The notes under the pieces were generated by a model. That model was not told the origin of the DNA and made no database searches. It was given only the letters and a program-made list of their open reading frames with translations. A stretch of 22,569 nucleotides of DNA from positions 1 through 22,569 of IMG/VR virus record IMGVR_UViG_3300032249_000721; one strand, given 5' to 3'. A program made the translations under genes and the position numbers. Origin of the DNA: a virus. Below are positions 1 to 20,186 of this stretch, piece after piece; position 1 is the first letter of the stretch, and the number at the start of each line of letters is the position of its first letter.

Positions 1-462
1 ATTGTTTAGCGTTTCAATCGCAATGACGTTGGCCGCAGGTCGAGGCCATTGCCTTCCATTTGTTCCGTTACGAAAGCCCCAAAAAGAAGTTCCCGATTGG
101 TTAAACATCAAAAACTCTCGGTTTGCGGTTGTAGATCGAATGGCTAAAGCCACTTGTCCTCCACTATTAGTTGATGAACCTATCAACATTGTGGAAGTAA
201 GCGATACGTTTGTTGAGGTTAGAAAGTTTGTAAGAGTGCTGGTAAGGCGATTCGGAGAAGCACTTAAGACCATCGGCTGTCCACCAGATATATTTGTTTT
301 GAACGTAGGTCGCGCAGTCGATGTGCCGCTATAGGTATGTGTATTGGTTCTGCTTGGCCATGCATCAATCGGATCGTTATTGGCAAAATTCAAATAGCGC
401 GCATCAAGAACGATAGCCGCGCCAAAATGGGCTGGATTCAAGTGTCTTTGACGCGCTCTCAT
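1..462 (-). CDS. LamG-like virion/fibre protein, N-terminal part (runs off the window)
   Basis: Reading the minus strand from the ATG at 460-462 gives 154 codons with no stop, continuing past position 1, so only the N-terminal part is here. The start overlaps the stop of the upstream fibre gene by one base (TAATG). The pattern AIVLDARYLNF, then a spaced Trp (DAWPSRTN), then RPTFKTNISGGQPMV resembles the first strands of LamG/concanavalin-A-like domains often found in phage tail and host-binding proteins (A-x-L-DA, W.., RP.f..n..gg.p.V). A later SFWGFRNGTNGRQWP stretch fits the same beta-sandwich. The function is inferred as glycan or surface binding at the tail tip. Base composition is clearly more AT-rich than in the head genes, as is common for exchanged fibre genes. 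The family call is from pattern memory and the C-terminal domain is unseen. Confidence 0.72.
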   Translation of the reverse strand, partial: MRARQRHLNPAHFGAAIVLDARYLNFANNDPIDAWPSRTNTHTYSGTSTARPTFKTNISGGQPMVLSASPNRLTSTLTNFLTSTNVSLTSTMLIGSSTNSGGQVALAIRSTTANREFLMFNQSGTSFWGFRNGTNGRQWPRPAANVIAIETLNN

Positions 463-1850
463 TAGTTAAAGCCAATTTCCACGCCAAGCAGACGGGCGTC
501 CACGGCAAGCGAGTCGCCACCCGCATCAGCATCGCGGTATATCTGGAACTGAACAGGCGTGTTAGCCGCTGGCGTCCCGCCGATGGTAACGGCACTGGTC
601 GCCGCCGAAACGTGCATGTCGTTTGCTGCCAGCAATGTATCGGTCGTCGTCTGTGCGGTCCCTGCCGCAGTATCAAGCGCATCGTCGTTAGCGAAAGCGC
701 GTGCTTGGATGCCCCAGATCACATCGCCGCTGCCCGAAGCTGCAGTCCAGTAAAAGCGAGCGGTGATCGTTCCGCTATTGTAATTGGACGGCATCACAAC
801 GAGAGCTTGAGCAAACTCGTCCGTGCCTGCGTCGAAAAGCAACTCGTCGAAGTTTTGGCGGTTGGTTGCCGTCTCGCGGCTGTCCACGCCGCAACCGTTA
901 GTGGTTCGAGGAATAAATGCCGAGGCGGGAATCCAGAGATTTGTGCTACCGCCTGCGGGCAGAGTCTCCAAGAGCGCGATGGTTCCGCTGGCGTTAGGCA
1001 GTGCATAGGACACGTTGGCGGTCAACGAGCTTGGGCGTGTTATAATCGCAACATTGCCAACGCCTTGATCCTTTAGTGTAATTCCTACAGAATCAAGAAC
1101 GATATTGTCACTCTGACTGCCTGTAGTTGAGCCGACAACCAAAGAGCCAACTGCGCCATTCTTAGGATCAACGCGAATCGTCGTAAAGTTTCCTGCCGCT
1201 GGCGTAGTGTTGCCAATAGCGGCGGGAGCCGCAAAATTCACGCGAGCATTGTCGAGGACGCCGCTGGTGATCGCGCTGGCGGCGTGGGTGTGATTGCCCT
1301 CTGCAAACTGCCCTGCCGCAGTCCCAAAAGCCCCCGCCTCGATAACGCCGCTCGTGCCTGTTTTAAGCGGGAGTCCGCTGGTCGTGCCGATGGCTCCAGC
1401 GTTTGTTAGGTTGCCGTGTGTGTGGGAAAGTGGCGTCCTTGCATCACTTAACCTTGAATCATTCCCCTCTGCTGCCGTGCCTGCCGTAGTGCCGTAGGAA
1501 ACGCTTGCCGTGATCGTGCCGCTCGTCGTAATCGGACTGCCGCTGATAGAAAGCCCGGTTCCTGCCAGCGCAACGCTCGTCACCGAGCCGCTGCCGGATG
1601 CTGCCGCTGCCCATTCCGTGTCGTAGTTACTGCCGCTGGCCTTCCGCAGAACTTGGCCCGTTGTTCCGCCGACTGGGACGCCTTGGCCGTTGGCTCCAGT
1701 TGCACCCGTTGCGCCAGTTGCCCCGGCTGCACCCGTCGCACCCGCCGGCCCGACCAGCGGCAGCGTAACGATCACTTCCTGCGGCGAGGGCGCGCCAACC
1801 GTTACCGAGTTGGTGCTCAAGCTAACATCAACTTTGTAGTAATTGGCCAT
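462..1850 (-). CDS. Collagen-like tail fibre protein with HxH motifs
   Basis: This 462-residue fibre protein has a short N-terminal attachment region (1-33), then an uninterrupted Gly-X-Y collagen-like run (34-57). A shaft follows, rich in Gly/Ser/Thr/Ala, with repeated GTxAGxxAEGN units. Two HTH tripeptides, at 143-145 and 187-189, resemble the HxH iron-binding motifs of the T4 gp37 trimeric fibre. The segment AAPAAIGNTTPAAGNFTTI (about 208-226) is a common phage-fibre motif. The C-terminal end (VDARLLGVEIGFN) matches the terminal strand of a widespread fibre-head domain. It is probably a homotrimer at the tail tip that binds the host. The gene begins one base after the stop of the preceding gene. 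The exact receptor cannot be inferred. Confidence 0.85.
   Translation of the reverse strand: MANYYKVDVSLSTNSVTVGAPSPQEVIVTLPLVGPAGATGAAGATGATGATGANGQGVPVGGTTGQVLRKASGSNYDTEWAAAASGSGSVTSVALAGTGLSISGSPITTSGTITASVSYGTTAGTAAEGNDSRLSDARTPLSHTHGNLTNAGAIGTTSGLPLKTGTSGVIEAGAFGTAAGQFAEGNHTHAASAITSGVLDNARVNFAAPAAIGNTTPAAGNFTTIRVDPKNGAVGSLVVGSTTGSQSDNIVLDSVGITLKDQGVGNVAIITRPSSLTANVSYALPNASGTIALLETLPAGGSTNLWIPASAFIPRTTNGCGVDSRETATNRQNFDELLFDAGTDEFAQALVVMPSNYNSGTITARFYWTAASGSGDVIWGIQARAFANDDALDTAAGTAQTTTDTLLAANDMHVSAATSAVTIGGTPAANTPVQFQIYRDADAGGDSLAVDARLLGVEIGFN
1680..1751 (-). repeat. Collagen-like Gly-X-Y triplet repeat in fibre gene
   Basis: Eight consecutive 9-base units encode Gly-X-Y (GPA, four GAT, GAA, GAN, GQG) in residues 34-57 of the fibre. 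Such triplets form a triple helix in phage fibres and impose trimerisation. The near-identical GAT units make the tract prone to expansion or contraction. Confidence 0.85.
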
Positions 1851-3551: not shown

Positions 3552-3980
3552 TCAGCGGCTCTCTATATCCCAGTGAAAAGGAAACCGATACGGCCCAACC
3601 CGCTCCTCGTCTGGGTTTTCGGGATCGTAGGGATGCGACGGCATATTCAATATTGCGGCCTCGCGGTGGCCGTGGCATGGCGTAAAGCCGTGGTAAATGC
3701 CCGGCGGGATGGTCAAAAGCTGCGGGTGGTCGGCGGCAAGGATGACGGTCTGTGACTTGCTCGTGGTCGCGTCGAACAGCCCGACCTTGGCCGCGCCGGC
3801 CACGCAATACCAGCGATCCCACTGCCGAGCGTGCTTGTGCCACGCTTTGATTACCCCTGCTGCTGCCGTGGTCAAGTAGGCTTGGCCGAATCCGTGCGCG
3901 TCATCGGTGGCGCGGAAAATCTCGGTCAGGCGTCCGCGCTCATCGAGGTGCGTTGTGAGTTGGCGGATGTCGGCTAACAT
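3552..3980 (-). CDS. RmlC-like cupin (dTDP-sugar 3,5-epimerase family)
   Basis: This protein has 142 residues from the ATG at 3978-3980, which overlaps the upstream stop by seven bases; an ATG eight codons earlier (4004) is also possible. The pattern HLDERGRLTEIFR, GQAYLTTAAAGVIKAWHKH, then a cupin strand WYCVAGAAKVGLFDA, and finally IPPGIYHGF and SHPYDPENPDEER, is that of RmlC-type dTDP-4-dehydrorhamnose 3,5-epimerases and related small cupins. His48, His50 and His97 are candidates for the active-site pocket. Classical RmlC is longer (about 180 residues), so this compact form may be an epimerase or isomerase on another nucleotide sugar. It ends a three-gene block with a glycosyltransferase and a DUF3431 protein, supporting a role in sugar supply or modification. 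Confidence 0.8.
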   Translation of the reverse strand: MLADIRQLTTHLDERGRLTEIFRATDDAHGFGQAYLTTAAAGVIKAWHKHARQWDRWYCVAGAAKVGLFDATTSKSQTVILAADHPQLLTIPPGIYHGFTPCHGHREAAILNMPSHPYDPENPDEERVGPYRFPFHWDIESR

Positions 3981-4663
3981 GGGCAGCCCAAAATGTTCCA
4001 CCATGTGCGTTCAAGGATTTCGCCGCTGCGCTCCGTTTTACGCGCCAAGGCTTGCACGTCCTTATACCACTGAAGCGGCCTGCCACGGATTGCATCCCGG
4101 CTGGCGGCAAACTGTGCGCCGGGCCGCCACCAAACCCTTTGCATATCGAGCTGGCCTAATTGCTTCCAGAATTTGCCACAAAATTCGGCCTCTGAACCAA
4201 TGGCATTCGGGTTGTCGGTTTTTGGCAGGGTGCAAAAGGTTACAGCGCCAAGGCTTTCAACCACCTCTTTGAAGTCGTGGCAATGGTCTTGAGGGTGGCC
4301 TTGCAGAAACACAGTGACCTCGGCCAACGTGTCGTAACGCCAGATAATGTGGTTTAGCCACTGCTCGGCCTCCCTGCCTTTTGGACAGTTGGCGGCGTCC
4401 TTTTCAACGTGTGCGCTAATTTCCTTGGTAGGATCAGGCTGGCGGGTCAGTTCTGCCATTTCGCGCACGAAAGCCATGACGGCGCGCATTCGGTCAAGCT
4501 GGGCATAAAGGTCTTCGCCGTGGTGATGCTGGCCACGGTTGACCTTGTGCGCGCTGGCCTGCGTAGGCTCCCCGCAGCGGTAAATCGTTGCCATAGGCCG
4601 CCAATGGTCGGGCAACCAATCAATCCGTTCGCGGTGGGCTGCAATGACGATTTCTTTTTGCAT
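3974..4663 (-). CDS. DUF3431 family protein
   Basis: This 229-residue protein matches the DUF3431 pattern: an N-terminal strand with IVIAAHRERIDWLPDHW and IYRCGE, then GREAEQWLNHIIWRYDTL followed by EVTVFLQGHPQDH (96-127), and late PGAQFAASRDAIRGRP (181-196) with LERTWWNILG near the C-terminus. DUF3431 members occur in fungi, bacteria and some viruses and usually sit with glycosyltransferases; their reaction is unknown. The ATG chosen (4661-4663) overlaps the preceding glycosyltransferase stop by one base (TGATG), indicating coupled translation. An in-frame ATG five codons upstream is less likely. It has no signal peptide or membrane segment, so it is cytoplasmic. A glycosyltransferase-like role is a guess from context. 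Confidence 0.78.
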   Translation of the reverse strand: MQKEIVIAAHRERIDWLPDHWRPMATIYRCGEPTQASAHKVNRGQHHHGEDLYAQLDRMRAVMAFVREMAELTRQPDPTKEISAHVEKDAANCPKGREAEQWLNHIIWRYDTLAEVTVFLQGHPQDHCHDFKEVVESLGAVTFCTLPKTDNPNAIGSEAEFCGKFWKQLGQLDMQRVWWRPGAQFAASRDAIRGRPLQWYKDVQALARKTERSGEILERTWWNILGCPC

Positions 4664-5685
4664 CAGCAGGGCATCCAAGGTTGCTGCCGCTGCCGCAAAT
4701 GGCCGCGGTATTCGCCCTCCGTTTCGTGATACGCCCGGTGGTGGACTACCTCGCCCTTGGCATCCCTCTTAACGTGGTCGGCTGCCGTGTGCGGGATAGC
4801 GGCAATGCAAAGGCCGGCGGGATGCCATCTGTGCCAGCAAAGGAATAGGTCTTGCGTGCCTTTGCCCTGGTAGCCTTCAAAGCTGGCCAAGGCCAGCGCA
4901 CGGGCAGACATCAGGGTGCAGCCAAGGCCGCACCAATCGCTTGGCACAATGGCCCCTTTGCCAATTCCAGGGTAGGCAAAGTCCATCCAGCCGCGCCGCC
5001 TCCAACCGTGTTTGCCGCTCACTTCAAAGACGTTCCCGTCTGGTGGGCATTTCTTCACGCGCTCGGCCAGACGCCCGAGCCGCTTACCTTCGCGCTCCCC
5101 GATGGCTTTGTCCTGGCAATCCTTGAGCCGGGCGCGGCAAGCCTCTAGGACGCGGACAAGTCGCGCTGGCAGCTTGCGCTCCTTTTCGGTGAAGTCCTCG
5201 GCAATGGGATTCTGCGGACTGCCGTTGCCTCCCAAGAACAAGCCATTGGGGTAAGTGACCGCCGCCACCTGATAGTAAGGCGACCCGTCCTCAGTAGGCA
5301 TGGCCAGCGCCCACTCGGCCACTCGGAGAGCATCTGGTGGGACAAGGTTGTCGGCCTCGACAGACCACAAGGCCGTGGCTCGGATCTTTCTCGCTGCGGC
5401 GAAAGCGGCCCCTTGAAGCGCTGCAATCCGCATTTGTGCTGGTTCTTTGTAATCCTTGCCCTCTACCCCGCCGTCCTCCATTGGCAGGGCAATGGCTTGG
5501 ATGCGCCAGCCCTCGGGCAGTTCGTGGCGAGCCACCTCAACGGCAGCCTTGGCCTCTTCACTTTGGTCAGTAGCCAGGATAAAGTGCGCCTCGGCGTGGT
5601 GGCCGGCGGCGGCGGCAATTCGCCTTAAAAACTGCGGCCAACAGTGGAAGTAACTTTTGGTTGCGTATGTCGCTATTGCCAGCAC
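4663..5685 (-). CDS. GT-A-type glycosyltransferase-like protein
   Basis: This 340-residue protein starts at GTG (5683-5685). The N-terminus enters directly into a Rossmann-like strand (LAIATYATKSYF), so no longer form is needed. Features of a family-2-like GT-A fold include the metal-binding acidic motif LWSVEADNLVPP (Glu110-Ala-Asp112), then CGLGCTLMSARAL (252-263). After these comes GTQDLFLCWHRWHPAGLCI, with Asp279 as a candidate base, and a closing His (DHV, 303-305). A Lys/Arg/Glu-rich insertion (about 165-213) looks helical. It probably transfers a sugar from an activated nucleotide donor in the cytoplasm. The acceptor is unknown: fibre protein, virion protein or host glycan. It lies 18 bases after the Ser/Thr-rich fibre gene and is coupled to the DUF3431 gene downstream. 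Confidence 0.75.
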   Translation of the reverse strand: MLAIATYATKSYFHCWPQFLRRIAAAAGHHAEAHFILATDQSEEAKAAVEVARHELPEGWRIQAIALPMEDGGVEGKDYKEPAQMRIAALQGAAFAAARKIRATALWSVEADNLVPPDALRVAEWALAMPTEDGSPYYQVAAVTYPNGLFLGGNGSPQNPIAEDFTEKERKLPARLVRVLEACRARLKDCQDKAIGEREGKRLGRLAERVKKCPPDGNVFEVSGKHGWRRRGWMDFAYPGIGKGAIVPSDWCGLGCTLMSARALALASFEGYQGKGTQDLFLCWHRWHPAGLCIAAIPHTAADHVKRDAKGEVVHHRAYHETEGEYRGHLRQRQQPWMPC

Positions 5686-13682: not shown

Positions 13683-15434
13683 CTATGGCTTGGAGTCAAA
13701 GGCATCAGGGTTCCTGCGCTTAAAGATTTCTAGCCCATACTTGTAACCCTCTGAGCTGTTTTCTATGGCGTAAGTGTCATCGGTTGGAACGGCTGGATTG
13801 AAAAACGGATGCTCATGCCGAAAGACGATTTCGCTTGGCACTATCCACCCGTGTTTTTTTGCTCGGTGGGTGAACTCGTTGTCGCAAAACACGCCGCGAT
13901 ATTCGCCACTGACAATGCCGCCCTTGTGTCCCATCGCCGCCAGGGTCGGGCGGGTGACGCAAAAAGTGATCAGCAAATCGTCGGTGCGGTATCCGTCACC
14001 AATTTGCAACACCGCCGGCCTGTTTAGCTTTTCGGCCAGCGCCTGCCAGATCAATTCATCCCAAAACAGGCAGGGCTCAAGATCGTCTTGTATGGTCAAA
14101 ATGATTTTGCCGCTGCTTGATCGCACTGCGGCGTTGTAGTTTTCGACCAAAGTTCCGCCCACGGCGTCTAAGTTCCCGGCGGGTGAAAGCGCGTGGCGAA
14201 AACGCCCCAAAATGTCCCGTGTCTCGGTGTCATCCTCGGAAAACCCAAAGATGTATTCGACGCTTTGCGGGTCTTTGGCTGCCTCCAACCACTTCTTGCG
14301 CGTCTCGGCGGCTTGTTGCGGCCTGCCCCGAGTCGGGTGGCACACGCTGATCTTGGCCCCGCACTTCTTAAACCACTCCAACTCAAACTGATCGCCCTTT
14401 TCGGTTTCTCCGTTGGCGCGCAGGGCGCAGGCATAAAGCCCGACGCCTCCAAACCCATAGACAACCGGGCGATGCGTCCACGGCACAATCTCAGGCACAG
14501 GCAGGGCCATAAAAGCCCTGGCATAAGCCAGCGCATCTTGGTTCTCTCCGTTGTCCAAGCTGGTGGCCGCAAGCTGCGCCAGTGCCTCCCTGCGCCAAGG
14601 CGAAACCTTGTAGGCTTCATGCAGGAGTGACTTTTTGGCGGCGAACACTGGTGCTCGCATGGCGAGTTGCAAATAGAGTTCGTAGCGTTCATCTCCCGAG
14701 AGCCCGTCATGTTTGAGTGCCTCGATGGCCAGCTCCATGCCCCGCGCATCGTTCTTCATGCCGAAATTCTCTAGGCTTCCGTAGAAAAGCCAGCGCGGGT
14801 CTTTGTCCCAATCGGGCTGCGCTGCGATGATGCGCCAGTTGCGGGCGTTGCCCTGCTTTTCGGCGGCGGCATCTTTCTTTTCGTCGGGCGCGTGAACAAT
14901 GCGGCAGTCCTCCCAGCGCACCTGGCCGTCTCCAGACTTATCAAAGGGTTCTAGGTGTTCATGCACCGCGCCCTCCCACTTGGCCGTCCCAGCCTTCCAG
15001 ACGCGCTCGCGCAAGAGGTTGAGGCCATTATTGGTCAGACGGTAGGGAATCATAGCAATCGTGTTGCTGGGGTCCGTCTCGCGCAAATGCTGGAGGATGG
15101 TGTTGCAGGAGTCGGGCTCAATAACATCGTCAGTATCAGCCCACATGAGCCACTGGTGGCCGTCTGCCTCGGCCATGTCGGTGGCCATCTGCCGGGCGGC
15201 GGCGAAATCGTCAACGTGGTCCCAGAACTGAAAAGCCTCGGCGTTTTTGTATTCGCCTGTTTTGCACCCCATTTCTCGGGCAATGTCTAGAGAGCGGTCT
15301 GGCTCCCTGCCCCCACAGGCGCGAACAACGTAAATGTGAGGCGTGAGATTTTGGAAAGCCTTGATAAAACGCCCGATATAACCCTCGCTATTTCCGCAAA
15401 TAGCGACCAACGCCAGAGAATGCTGTGTGTCCAT
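13683..15434 (-). CDS. Two-domain glycosyltransferase with central helical repeats
   Basis: This 583-residue protein appears to hold two GT-A domains. The first (about 1-200) begins LALVAICGNSEGYIGRF and has the donor-metal motif MWADTDDVIEP (Asp100-Thr-Asp-Asp103). It also has WEGAVHEHLEP (153-163), the HE motif typical of GT2 enzymes that carry TPR-like repeats, as in SunS-type protein glycosyltransferases. A helical middle part (about 215-345) resembles TPR repeats. The second domain (about 360-583) starts KISVCHPTRGRPQQA, has ENYNAAVRSSSGKIILTIQDDLEP (Asp450-Asp451) and ends with CDNEFTHRAKKHGW and a His pair (RHEH). It probably adds two sugars in sequence. It is placed between the capsid gene and the head-tail genes, so a virion protein could be its acceptor. 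It is preceded by the capsid terminator and lacks a clear Shine-Dalgarno sequence. Confidence 0.82.
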   Translation of the reverse strand: MDTQHSLALVAICGNSEGYIGRFIKAFQNLTPHIYVVRACGGREPDRSLDIAREMGCKTGEYKNAEAFQFWDHVDDFAAARQMATDMAEADGHQWLMWADTDDVIEPDSCNTILQHLRETDPSNTIAMIPYRLTNNGLNLLRERVWKAGTAKWEGAVHEHLEPFDKSGDGQVRWEDCRIVHAPDEKKDAAAEKQGNARNWRIIAAQPDWDKDPRWLFYGSLENFGMKNDARGMELAIEALKHDGLSGDERYELYLQLAMRAPVFAAKKSLLHEAYKVSPWRREALAQLAATSLDNGENQDALAYARAFMALPVPEIVPWTHRPVVYGFGGVGLYACALRANGETEKGDQFELEWFKKCGAKISVCHPTRGRPQQAAETRKKWLEAAKDPQSVEYIFGFSEDDTETRDILGRFRHALSPAGNLDAVGGTLVENYNAAVRSSSGKIILTIQDDLEPCLFWDELIWQALAEKLNRPAVLQIGDGYRTDDLLITFCVTRPTLAAMGHKGGIVSGEYRGVFCDNEFTHRAKKHGWIVPSEIVFRHEHPFFNPAVPTDDTYAIENSSEGYKYGLEIFKRRNPDAFDSKP

Positions 15435-15464
15435 TCGCGCACGGCGTGCTTGTCAACGAAACCA

Positions 15465-15493
15465 AAAGCAAAACCCCCGGCTGATGCCGGGGG
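15465..15493 (-). terminator. Intrinsic terminator after the major capsid gene
   Basis: On the minus strand an 8-bp perfect GC-rich stem (arms 15474-15481 and 15486-15493, GCCGGGGG against CCCCCGGC) encloses a four-base loop and is followed by TTTTGCTTTT. It begins about 30 bases after the capsid stop. It should end or attenuate the head transcript, making capsid mRNA abundant, with downstream genes reached by read-through or antitermination. Confidence 0.85.
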
Positions 15494-15523
15494 CTTGCTG
15501 AACACACAAACCAGAACCAATCT

Positions 15524-16438
15524 TTAGGCGCTGCGACCCAGAATCTTGAGCCCGGCAGTGATGCCGTAAGTGAATCCGCCGACCACCTCGAAGTTGAGGA
15601 AGTGGGTGCCGTTCGCCGTGTTGTAGTGGCGACGATACCCGAGGCCGATGCCGCTGACGGGATCAACGATGGTGCGGGCCTCCAGATACTCTGAAGGAGC
15701 CTGCGGGGCCAAGGTGCGAACCGCCACGGCGATGGCCGAGGGATGCACCGCGAAGCCCGCGAGTGTGATGCCGCTGCCCACGCTGGTGGAGGGAATCAGG
15801 GTGCTTTCGTAGACATCCATGCCGGCGATGCGGCGGATGTTGCCTTCGCGCACGCCTTCGGGGCCGAAGTTCAAGTTAGCTAGGATGTTGGTGCTGTCGG
15901 ACAGCAACGCATCGTAGAGGTCGGGATCAAGGAAGAGCGCCCGATCATTCATCGGAGCCTTGGCCTTGGTCAACTCCAAGCGCGCTTTGCGGACCTGACT
16001 CATGCCAAAGCTGGCGACGGTCGAGCTGGTCGCAATGGCACCGTAGTTGGCCGTGGTGATCATGGCCCACGCGCCGCTGATGAAGGCCTGGGCAACCGCA
16101 CGGCCCTGCTCTGCGCCGATTTGCGCGAGCATCTGGGGAGTGAGGGCCGAGGACTTGCTCCACTGGGTGTCCGTGAAATCAACCGTGGACAAGAAATGCT
16201 TGTCGATGGTGACTTCGCGGGCCGTTAGGGTAACGTCTCCGTCCGCGCCTTCGTAGGTGTTGGCGAAGGTGGTGGCAGTGATCGAGCTGATGAGCGGGAT
16301 GCTCACCACTTCGCCCTTGCGCGCTGCTTCGGCGTTATAGTTAACGGAGAAGGCGGACAGGGGATGCAGGGAATCAACAAACGCTTTGAGCGCCGCTGAA
16401 CTGATGATGTCGTCGTTTAGACCAGTGATGGAAGCCAT
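15524..16438 (-). CDS. Major capsid protein (HK97 fold)
   Basis: This 304-residue protein follows the prohead protease/scaffold gene, as in most tailed phages. Typical elements are an N-terminal arm (ISSAALKAFVDSLHPLSAFS), SIPLISSITATTFANTYEG as a domain entry, and REVTIDKHFLSTVDFTDTQW. A P-domain-like helix follows with RAVAQAFISGAWAM. Near the C-terminus come ALFLDPDLYDALLSD, IAGMDVYESTLIPS and AGFAVHPSAIAVAVRTL, a pattern shared by P22-coat-like and related capsid proteins. It is the shell subunit (pentamers and hexamers around the DNA). It is smaller than lambda gpE (341) but complete. The ATG lies six bases after the protease stop in an A-rich leader with no Shine-Dalgarno sequence, which is odd for what should be the most abundant virion protein. 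A terminator follows. Confidence 0.88.
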   Translation of the reverse strand: MASITGLNDDIISSAALKAFVDSLHPLSAFSVNYNAEAARKGEVVSIPLISSITATTFANTYEGADGDVTLTAREVTIDKHFLSTVDFTDTQWSKSSALTPQMLAQIGAEQGRAVAQAFISGAWAMITTANYGAIATSSTVASFGMSQVRKARLELTKAKAPMNDRALFLDPDLYDALLSDSTNILANLNFGPEGVREGNIRRIAGMDVYESTLIPSTSVGSGITLAGFAVHPSAIAVAVRTLAPQAPSEYLEARTIVDPVSGIGLGYRRHYNTANGTHFLNFEVVGGFTYGITAGLKILGRSA

Positions 16439-19095: not shown

Positions 19096-19263
19096 TCAAA
19101 GAGCCGACTTCCTGCGCTTGGCCCACATGGCCAACGCCGCAGCGCGGGCCTGATCAGAGGTTCTAGCCTTAGACGCACCGCGCCCGGCAGATCCACCAAG
19201 CCGCCCCGCTTTGGCGGCGTCAATAACTTTAGGCAGCTTTTTTCCGCAATGTGGGCATTTCAT
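19096..19263 (-). CDS. Small CxxC zinc-ribbon-like protein, 55 residues
   Basis: This short gene starts with ATG at 19261-19263 inside the last codons of the ligase gene (35-base overlap, different frame) and stops at TGA 19096-19098. The product begins MKCPHCGKKLPKVIDAAKAG, with one CxxC pair, then GGSAGRGASKARTSDQA and AALAMWAKRRKSAL. This is the common small phage pattern of a half zinc-ribbon followed by a Gly/Ser/Arg-rich turn and a basic helix that could contact DNA or RNA. Only one CxxC is present, so metal binding would need dimerisation. The stop lies 16 bases before the gpW-like start. It is missed by any length cut-off of 60 residues. Its function is unknown. Confidence 0.72.
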   Translation of the reverse strand: MKCPHCGKKLPKVIDAAKAGRLGGSAGRGASKARTSDQARAAALAMWAKRRKSAL

Positions 19264-20152
19264 AATTTACTTCCGTGTCGCAAGCCGCCCGCCACCCAAT
19301 AAACTGAGGGAAGCGCGGTGCGTCCTTGGCCCCGCTGGGCTGGTGTGAAAACTTAACGATGCGCCCGACAAGCGATGTCCTGTGACGCCAAGCGATTTCT
19401 CGGTCTAATCCTCCAGCAACATGATTGTAGGCAAGGCGAAACTCAACGCCCGTATCAAGCACGCGAACAATAAAGCCACCAAGCTCGCCGCGCCCGGCCA
19501 TTCCTGCTCCGGCTGCACTGCGCTTGGTTCTGCCAAAAGCGTCAAGCGTTGGCGCGTTTTGATTGCTCAAGCCTTCGTAAGTGTCAATAACCACACCTTC
19601 AGAGTCCTCAAAACGCTTAACCTTAAACAGCCATCCCTCGCGCTCGGTTGATCGTCCGCATTTATACGGCCCCATTGGGTCGCGCACCATGATTCCCTCA
19701 AATCCCCGCAAAACGCAAAACTGCTCATATTTTGAAAGATCCTCATGGTTGTGGATCAAGGCTGGCAAAACCTTTTCCATGCGGTCGGCATTGGGCAAGC
19801 CCTCCAAAGACTTTACCCTTTGAAAATATGGCTCGGTGGGATCAACAACAAAATCAAACGCGCAGAAAAGAAAGTCCGGCTGGCCGTGGTGGCGTCCAAT
19901 CCCGCTGCTAATCTCGGAAAAATTGCCGTGTCTAAGCATGATTTCCCCGTCGCACCCGTCTGGCACATTTGCCTCGATCCAATCCCTTGCAAATATATTT
20001 GGAACGGGCTTGAAAGACCTGGTTAATGCGCGGCCCCCGAGCTTTATGCACCGTATGCCGTCAAGTTTTGGTGTTGCTAAAACAGGAAAGCGGACGCTGC
20101 TGGGAATGTAGCGCGCTGCAAGCATTGGCCTGCTAATGATCTGCGTGTTCAT
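19229..20152 (-). CDS. ATP-dependent DNA ligase
   Basis: This protein has 307 residues from the ATG at 20150-20152; a TTG six codons upstream is possible but has weaker support. It is a minimal ligase of adenylation domain plus OB domain. Lys29 in KLDGIR is motif I (adenylated lysine). FLFCAFDFVV (94-103) is motif III, FEGIMVRD (151-158) motif IV and WLFKVKR (174-180) motif V. The OB part has GGFIVRVLDTGVEFRLAYN and the end KDAPRFPQFIGWR. All catalytic residues seem intact. It seals nicks in duplex DNA. Placing a replication/repair gene between terminase and portal genes is unusual. GC is about 50 per cent against roughly 57 for terminase, so it looks like a transferred moron with its own promoter-like site. 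Confidence 0.9.
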   Translation of the reverse strand: MNTQIISRPMLAARYIPSSVRFPVLATPKLDGIRCIKLGGRALTRSFKPVPNIFARDWIEANVPDGCDGEIMLRHGNFSEISSGIGRHHGQPDFLFCAFDFVVDPTEPYFQRVKSLEGLPNADRMEKVLPALIHNHEDLSKYEQFCVLRGFEGIMVRDPMGPYKCGRSTEREGWLFKVKRFEDSEGVVIDTYEGLSNQNAPTLDAFGRTKRSAAGAGMAGRGELGGFIVRVLDTGVEFRLAYNHVAGGLDREIAWRHRTSLVGRIVKFSHQPSGAKDAPRFPQFIGWRAACDTEVNYEMPTLRKKAA

Positions 20153-20158
20153 GCGCCC

Positions 20159-20186
20159 AAGATAACGCAAACAGCTTGCGCGTCAA
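20159..20186 (-). promoter_or_regulatory. Candidate sigma70-type promoter for the ligase gene
   Basis: On the minus strand TTGACG (20181-20186) and TATCTT (20159-20164) are 16 bases apart. They match the -35 box at 5 of 6 and the -10 box at 4 of 6. Transcription would begin a few bases from the ligase ATG, giving an almost leaderless mRNA. No Shine-Dalgarno sequence is seen. Unproven. Confidence 0.45.

Follow-up and report, generated by a model that had tools for sequence, protein, structure and literature searches.

A fused two-domain glycosyltransferase adjoining the capsid gene of uncultivated tailed phages, with an exchangeable half in its second domain

To our knowledge, glycosylated phage particles have been documented mainly in a few mycobacteriophages. 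The glycan of the mycobacteriophage virion shields it from antibodies. Virion glycosylation in mycobacteriophages is cited in three papers (PMC11256854, PMC12363180, PMC12619734), two of which describe glycans on the capsid and tail-tube proteins (PMC12363180, PMC12619734). The phage-encoded glycosyltransferases (GTs) of these systems include gp108-110 of Che8 and gp38 of Corndog; in Che8 each enzyme has its own gene, close to the end of the genome and at a distance from the capsid gene, and gp108 reads by eye as a GT2-methyltransferase fusion. Protein glycosyltransferases in which helical repeats follow the GT domain include SunS and ThuS, the peptide S-glycosyltransferases of the SPbeta prophage and Bacillus, of which SunS attaches glucose to a cysteine in the SunA peptide (PMC6405829), and GmaR, the flagellin O-GlcNAc transferase of Listeria, the TPR domain of which has been proposed to recognise the substrate (PMC9638930). 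Two GT-A domains in a single chain, each with its own donor, are found in the chondroitin and heparosan synthases K4CP and PmHS2. Our literature searches found no phage GT described as both two-domain and capsid-linked. Phage virion glycosylation is known, and what is new here is a capsid-linked fused GT with an exchangeable specificity half.

The stretch of DNA analysed here (hereafter, the window) is the virus record IMGVR_UViG_3300032249_000721, with a length of 22,569 bases. The preliminary description of this DNA had reported an open reading frame at 13683-15434, between the capsid and head-tail genes, in which two sets of GT motifs (DTDD and HE, then QDD) are separated by helical repeats. 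This observation of a GT with two motif sets behind the capsid gene is confirmed: the gene occupies exactly these coordinates, on the minus strand, and encodes a fused two-domain GT of 583 aa that is recognised by Pfam, PHROG and structure modelling. The motifs, found as D100-T-D102-D103 (15126-15137), H158-E159 (14958-14963) and Q449-D450-D451 (14082-14090), are not chance occurrences, because Pfam Glycos_transf_2 and two different PHROG GT families match the halves of the protein. The gene 5' of the GT (15524-16438, minus) encodes a major head protein of the P22 type (PHROG 283, E 3.8e-25), the presumed acceptor, and the minus-strand order is terminase, ATP-dependent DNA ligase-like gene, small head gene, portal, protease-position gene, major capsid protein and GT, followed by the head-tail and tail genes. 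The ligase-like gene in the interval between the terminase and the head genes (19229-20170, minus; PHROG 114, E 4e-48) has no match among the 18 close relatives compared. A tail-fibre-like protein with a collagen-like GATGATGATG stretch is encoded at 462-1850 (minus).

The first GT-A domain of the fused protein comprises residues 1-185 (14880-15434, minus). Pfam Glycos_transf_2 matches residues 15-154 (E 8.5e-8; 32.7 bits against a curated cut-off of 23.3), the glycosyltransferase family phrog_13126 matches residues 46-310 (E 7.9e-15), and residues 1-293 of the AlphaFold2 model superpose on SunS with Z 24.2 and an rmsd of 2.7 over 273 residues. Given this family match, the fold and the invariance of D100, D102 and D103, domain 1 is a GT2 enzyme of the GT-A fold with a DxD motif. 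By family profile, the best characterised relatives of the N-half are GmaR (E 9.5e-17), SunS (2.7e-14) and ThuS (1.5e-10), and in the profile alignment DTDD falls on the ‘DAD’ and HE on the HE of SunS and GmaR. All three are protein glycosyltransferases, so that the nearest relatives of domain 1 with known function are protein-directed, and the kinship to such enzymes proposed earlier is supported for this domain. The following residues, ~194-357 (14364-14855, minus), form TPR-like helix pairs between the two GT-A domains of the model; the TPR signal is weak in single sequences, with no Pfam TPR match in the window protein, and appears in profile matches to consensus TPR proteins. From the homology of the GT-A domain together with the helical repeats, this part of the protein is predicted to be of the SunS/GmaR type. 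SunS and ThuS share with the window GT the order of a GT-A domain and helical repeats as well as the DxD and HE motifs, but their identity to it is ~15%, they have no second GT-A domain, and their acceptor is a bacteriocin precursor rather than a capsid. The window GT has no adjoining precursor-peptide gene; no glycocin precursor, ABC transporter/peptidase or thiol oxidoreductase gene adjoins it, and its neighbours are phage head and tail genes. GmaR, the closest solved sequence relative of domain 1, likewise has TPRs after the GT domain and modifies a surface-filament protein, but continues into an anti-repressor domain where the window protein continues into a second GT.

An alignment of 12 close relatives was enough for AlphaFold2 to resolve the N-half of the protein but left the C-half with pLDDT under 50. 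Distant relatives were found via the HPTRGRPxxA signature of the second domain and then with a profile built from them; a profile scan of viral contigs gave 245 GT relatives, of which the best 80 were kept. The model built from 54 sequences including distant relatives has a mean pLDDT of 90.7 and a pTM of 0.85. It displays two separate GT-A folds rather than one, as the preliminary description had anticipated, and the fused architecture, which that description proposed to look for in other phages, is present in the viral-contig relatives. The second GT-A domain (residues 359-583; 13686-14360, minus) superposes in the model on the fucosyltransferase WrtF (Z 16.6, rmsd 3.0 over 197 residues) and on RmlT (Z 15.7), with GalNAc-transferases and TarS also aligning to it. 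A second, different glycosyltransferase family, phrog_14945, matches residues 361-560 (E 5.4e-5), and no Pfam family passes for the C-half of the window protein. Sequence and model together point to a GT-A enzyme in which QDD is the acidic donor motif and, by analogy with GT2 enzymes, D518-N-E520 (13875-13883, minus) holds the candidate catalytic base. WrtF, RmlT and TarS/TarP, which share the GT-A fold of domain 2 (Z 15-17), are glycan-extending or decorating enzymes, but act on polysaccharides or teichoic acids and have a single GT domain and other accessory parts. K4CP and PmHS2 are polymerases without the TPR linker, and their domain arrangement differs, as judged by an rmsd of 15-20 across both domains. 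Internal duplication as the origin of both domains was considered and rejected, the comparison of N-half and C-half profiles giving E 0.49. A pattern-seeded search of a genome collection (one genome each for 84,980 species) revealed no cellular homologues. In the phage collection nothing matches over the full length: three Manatee Spring records contain the N-half alone, and the C-half is weakly matched in phages of Streptomyces and Arthrobacter. Orthology with the Che8 enzymes found no clear support: gp108 matched at the level of the fold (E 3e-4 in a search of ~30 proteins), and gp109 and gp110 had no match.

The acidic residues of both domains, the loss of which across homologues would speak against the two-transferase assignment, are kept: D100, D102, D103, H158, E159, D450, D451 and D518 show no variation across the alignment of 54 sequences, with identities down to 36%. 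The same holds for R142-E143-R144, D480, R483 and D485, and Q449 is kept in most. Both domains are under purifying selection, dN/dS being 0.02-0.16 in all four segments over seven pairs, a rough estimate with several synonymous distances near saturation.

In the annotated relatives retrieved with the GT as query, the capsid gene is almost without exception the first recognised gene on the upstream side. To remove the bias of the GT query, we searched with the capsid protein as the sole query and retained the best 80 of 333 matches. The fused GT lies directly downstream of the capsid gene in 61 of the 61 loci with at least 1.9 kb of downstream sequence, which supports the coupling to the capsid gene suggested earlier; these loci include many near-duplicates and are not 61 independent events. 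Of the 19 shorter loci, 17 display the start of the N-domain and the remaining two had <100 bases. The gap between the two genes is mostly 67-151 nt, and among these best 80 of 333 matches the adjacency persists at capsid identities as low as about 42%; the genes further downstream of the GT are exchanged or absent among relatives. The Verrucomicrobia phage P8625, with a capsid protein 26% identical and a similar gene order, has only a small gene in the slot; this head module therefore does not always include the GT. In one relative (L172, 6722-7960) a DNA methyltransferase gene is inserted between the capsid gene and the fused GT. Another relative (L289, 9253-10323) carries a tyrosine integrase, by which the phage group may be temperate; no prophage of this group was found in the genome collection. 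The groundwater phage ctKR88 (L093, MW202524.1, 3147-5432, UOF78238.1) encodes, two genes behind that for its capsid protein, a similar GT2-TPR domain in fusion with another GT, but this second domain is a GT-B (Glycos_transf_1). The ctKR88 capsid protein, at 15% identity, was not taken as related, and the region is possibly a convergent capsid-glycan locus. Further sugar and methyltransferase genes come after the fused GT of ctKR88.

The preliminary description did not include the intrinsic terminator that separates the GT from the capsid gene (15465-15500, minus). In 24 of the 25 phages sampled, this intergenic region contains a strong hairpin with a run rich in T behind it, and the stems differ by group (CCCCCGGC/GCCGGGGG, CCCCGGGGC/GCCCCGGGG, GCCGTCAGCC/GGCTGGCGGT and others). 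Such a terminator would lower the transcription of the GT relative to that of the capsid gene, and given its position upstream of the GT, the two genes need not be co-expressed. A TTGACA hexamer at 15451-15456 (minus), ~20-40 nt before the GT start, is conserved in most relatives. No clear Shine-Dalgarno sequence precedes the GT start codon in the window and in most relatives.

Also absent from the preliminary description is an exchangeable cassette that covers the acceptor-side half of domain 2 (residues ~421-568; 13731-14174, minus; type I in the window). In one pair of relatives (L002, which like the window carries type I, and L007, which carries type II) the upstream sequence is 98.2% identical; within the GT gene the values are 97.3% for codons 1-415, 56.5% for codons 421-568 and 100% for the final 14 codons, and the gene that follows is 97.3% identical. 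The corresponding values are 98.1, 91.3, 59.7, 88.1 and 98.5% for L005 and L052, in which the left edge is less sharp and codons ~227-300 and ~367-415 differ too, and 95.3, 86.4, 58.8, 92.9 and 87.3% for the window and L003. A distant N-domain group of 27 sequences comprises five C-types at 65% clustering; pairs such as L183 and L193, with N-domains 95% identical, have cassettes 45% identical, and, conversely, the cassettes of the window and L189 agree at 73% identity, the N-domains being only 32% identical. Cassette exchange has occurred in several backgrounds. Residues 358-419, the start of the GT-A domain, are conserved, and the swapped part includes the QDD motif and D518 together with the acceptor side. 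What recombination replaces is thus the specificity half of domain 2, with the first transferase and the capsid protein left untouched. Mosaic recombination, with no selection favouring different glycans, could account for the exchange. No second, silent copy of the cassette of the shufflon kind was found in 10 longer records, all fragments, with one match per record.

Some relatives extend the fusion by a further domain or have further genes behind it. Six long relatives (L200, L206 and L211-L214) have a third domain at the C-terminus, which in L213 is Methyltransf_24 (E 9.5e-25) and in the other five is methyltransferase-like by eye. Extra genes found right behind the fusion encode a GT2 enzyme (L122, L192), a GT-B-like PF13524 protein (L122, weakly L113), an RGP-like protein (L137) and a DUF3431 protein (L165, 7928-8482). 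Additions of a methyltransferase domain, GT2, GT-B and DUF3431 at one spot are as expected of a glycan-building locus. A DUF3431 protein (E 2e-13) is also encoded in the fibre-side cassette of the window (3974-4678, minus), matched only in L045 among the 18 close relatives compared. The proposal that the capsid side and the fibre side represent two separate layers of glycosylation is weakened by this finding: because DUF3431 lies directly behind the fused GT in L165, the fibre-side cassette and the fused GT may belong to one pathway. On the fibre side, a 340-aa protein (4663-5685, minus), 83-96% conserved in many relatives, has no Pfam, PHROG or NCBIfam match, and its SVEADN motif could be the DxD of another GT-A enzyme. 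Conserved beside its gene is a cupin of the Polysacc_synt_C / WbuC / dTDP-sugar-epimerase kind (3552-4004, minus).

The reading that we favour, with moderate confidence, is a bifunctional virion-protein GT that primes and then extends a glycan, with the major capsid protein as the probable acceptor, from gene order. The TPR-like helices would dock a virion protein, with the newly synthesised major capsid protein as the likeliest partner; the SunS/GmaR-type domain 1 would use its DxD and HE motifs to attach the first sugar, drawn from a nucleotide sugar, to a side chain, and the tethered second GT-A domain would put a second sugar on the primed residue, the sequential addition suggested in the preliminary description. 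The terminator would hold the copies of the enzyme low relative to the hundreds of capsid subunits. The acceptor may possibly be another virion protein or a host target. Were it the tail tube, the head-tail connector or a fibre, the adjacency to the capsid gene would be only historical; the reported glycosylation of both capsid and tail tube in mycobacteriophages (PMC12363180, PMC12619734), with Che8 gp108-110 encoded far from the capsid gene, fits this reading, as does the missing GT in the P8625 slot, but it appears unlikely with the adjacency holding to ~42% capsid identity (best 80 of 333) while genes farther downstream are exchanged or absent.

Modification of a host surface glycan, for serotype conversion or superinfection exclusion, has precedent among phage GTs (cited in PMC12619734) and would suit the lysogenic stage that the integrase of one relative makes possible. 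We regard it as improbable, the gene being located inside the late head gene block, with no gtr-type membrane-anchored partner genes recognised beside it and with protein glycosyltransferases as the kin of domain 1. Phage GTs of DNA hypermodification also exist (cited in the same paper), and a 39.6 kb relative carries a C5 cytosine methylase. Glycosylation of modified bases in phage DNA is nevertheless highly improbable here, considering the structural neighbourhood, the kinship to protein-directed enzymes and the lack of a base-hydroxymethylating partner in the window or in the seven Pfam-scanned genes of that relative, a partial coverage. It is also conceivable that only domain 1 is active and that domain 2, the variable one and without a Pfam match in the window protein, is degenerate or serves as an acceptor-binding module. 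There is little chance of this, given the confident GT-A model, the invariance of D450, D451, D480, R483, D485 and D518 and a cassette dN/dS of 0.03-0.08.

Under the favoured prime-and-extend reading, swapping of the acceptor-side half would alter the second step (sugar, linkage or acceptor) while the priming domain and the capsid remain unchanged, and this would give close relatives glycan surfaces that differ. These phages probably coat their own shell with a changeable, putative sugar layer. More tentatively, and with somewhat less than even confidence, a widespread lineage of uncultivated tailed phages may possess a modular prime-and-extend capsid GT locked to the capsid gene, the second specificity half of which, repeatedly swapped between phages by recombination, would provide serotype switching on the virion itself. 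A fused GT that is linked to the capsid gene across a lineage, has an exchangeable specificity half and was found in none of the cellular genomes searched offers a specific example on which the diversification of virion glycans can be tested where antibodies are lacking. There the selecting force must be a different one, with adsorption, grazing and phage-phage competition as candidates. On the serotype-switching reading, phages with near-identical capsids would display different glycans.
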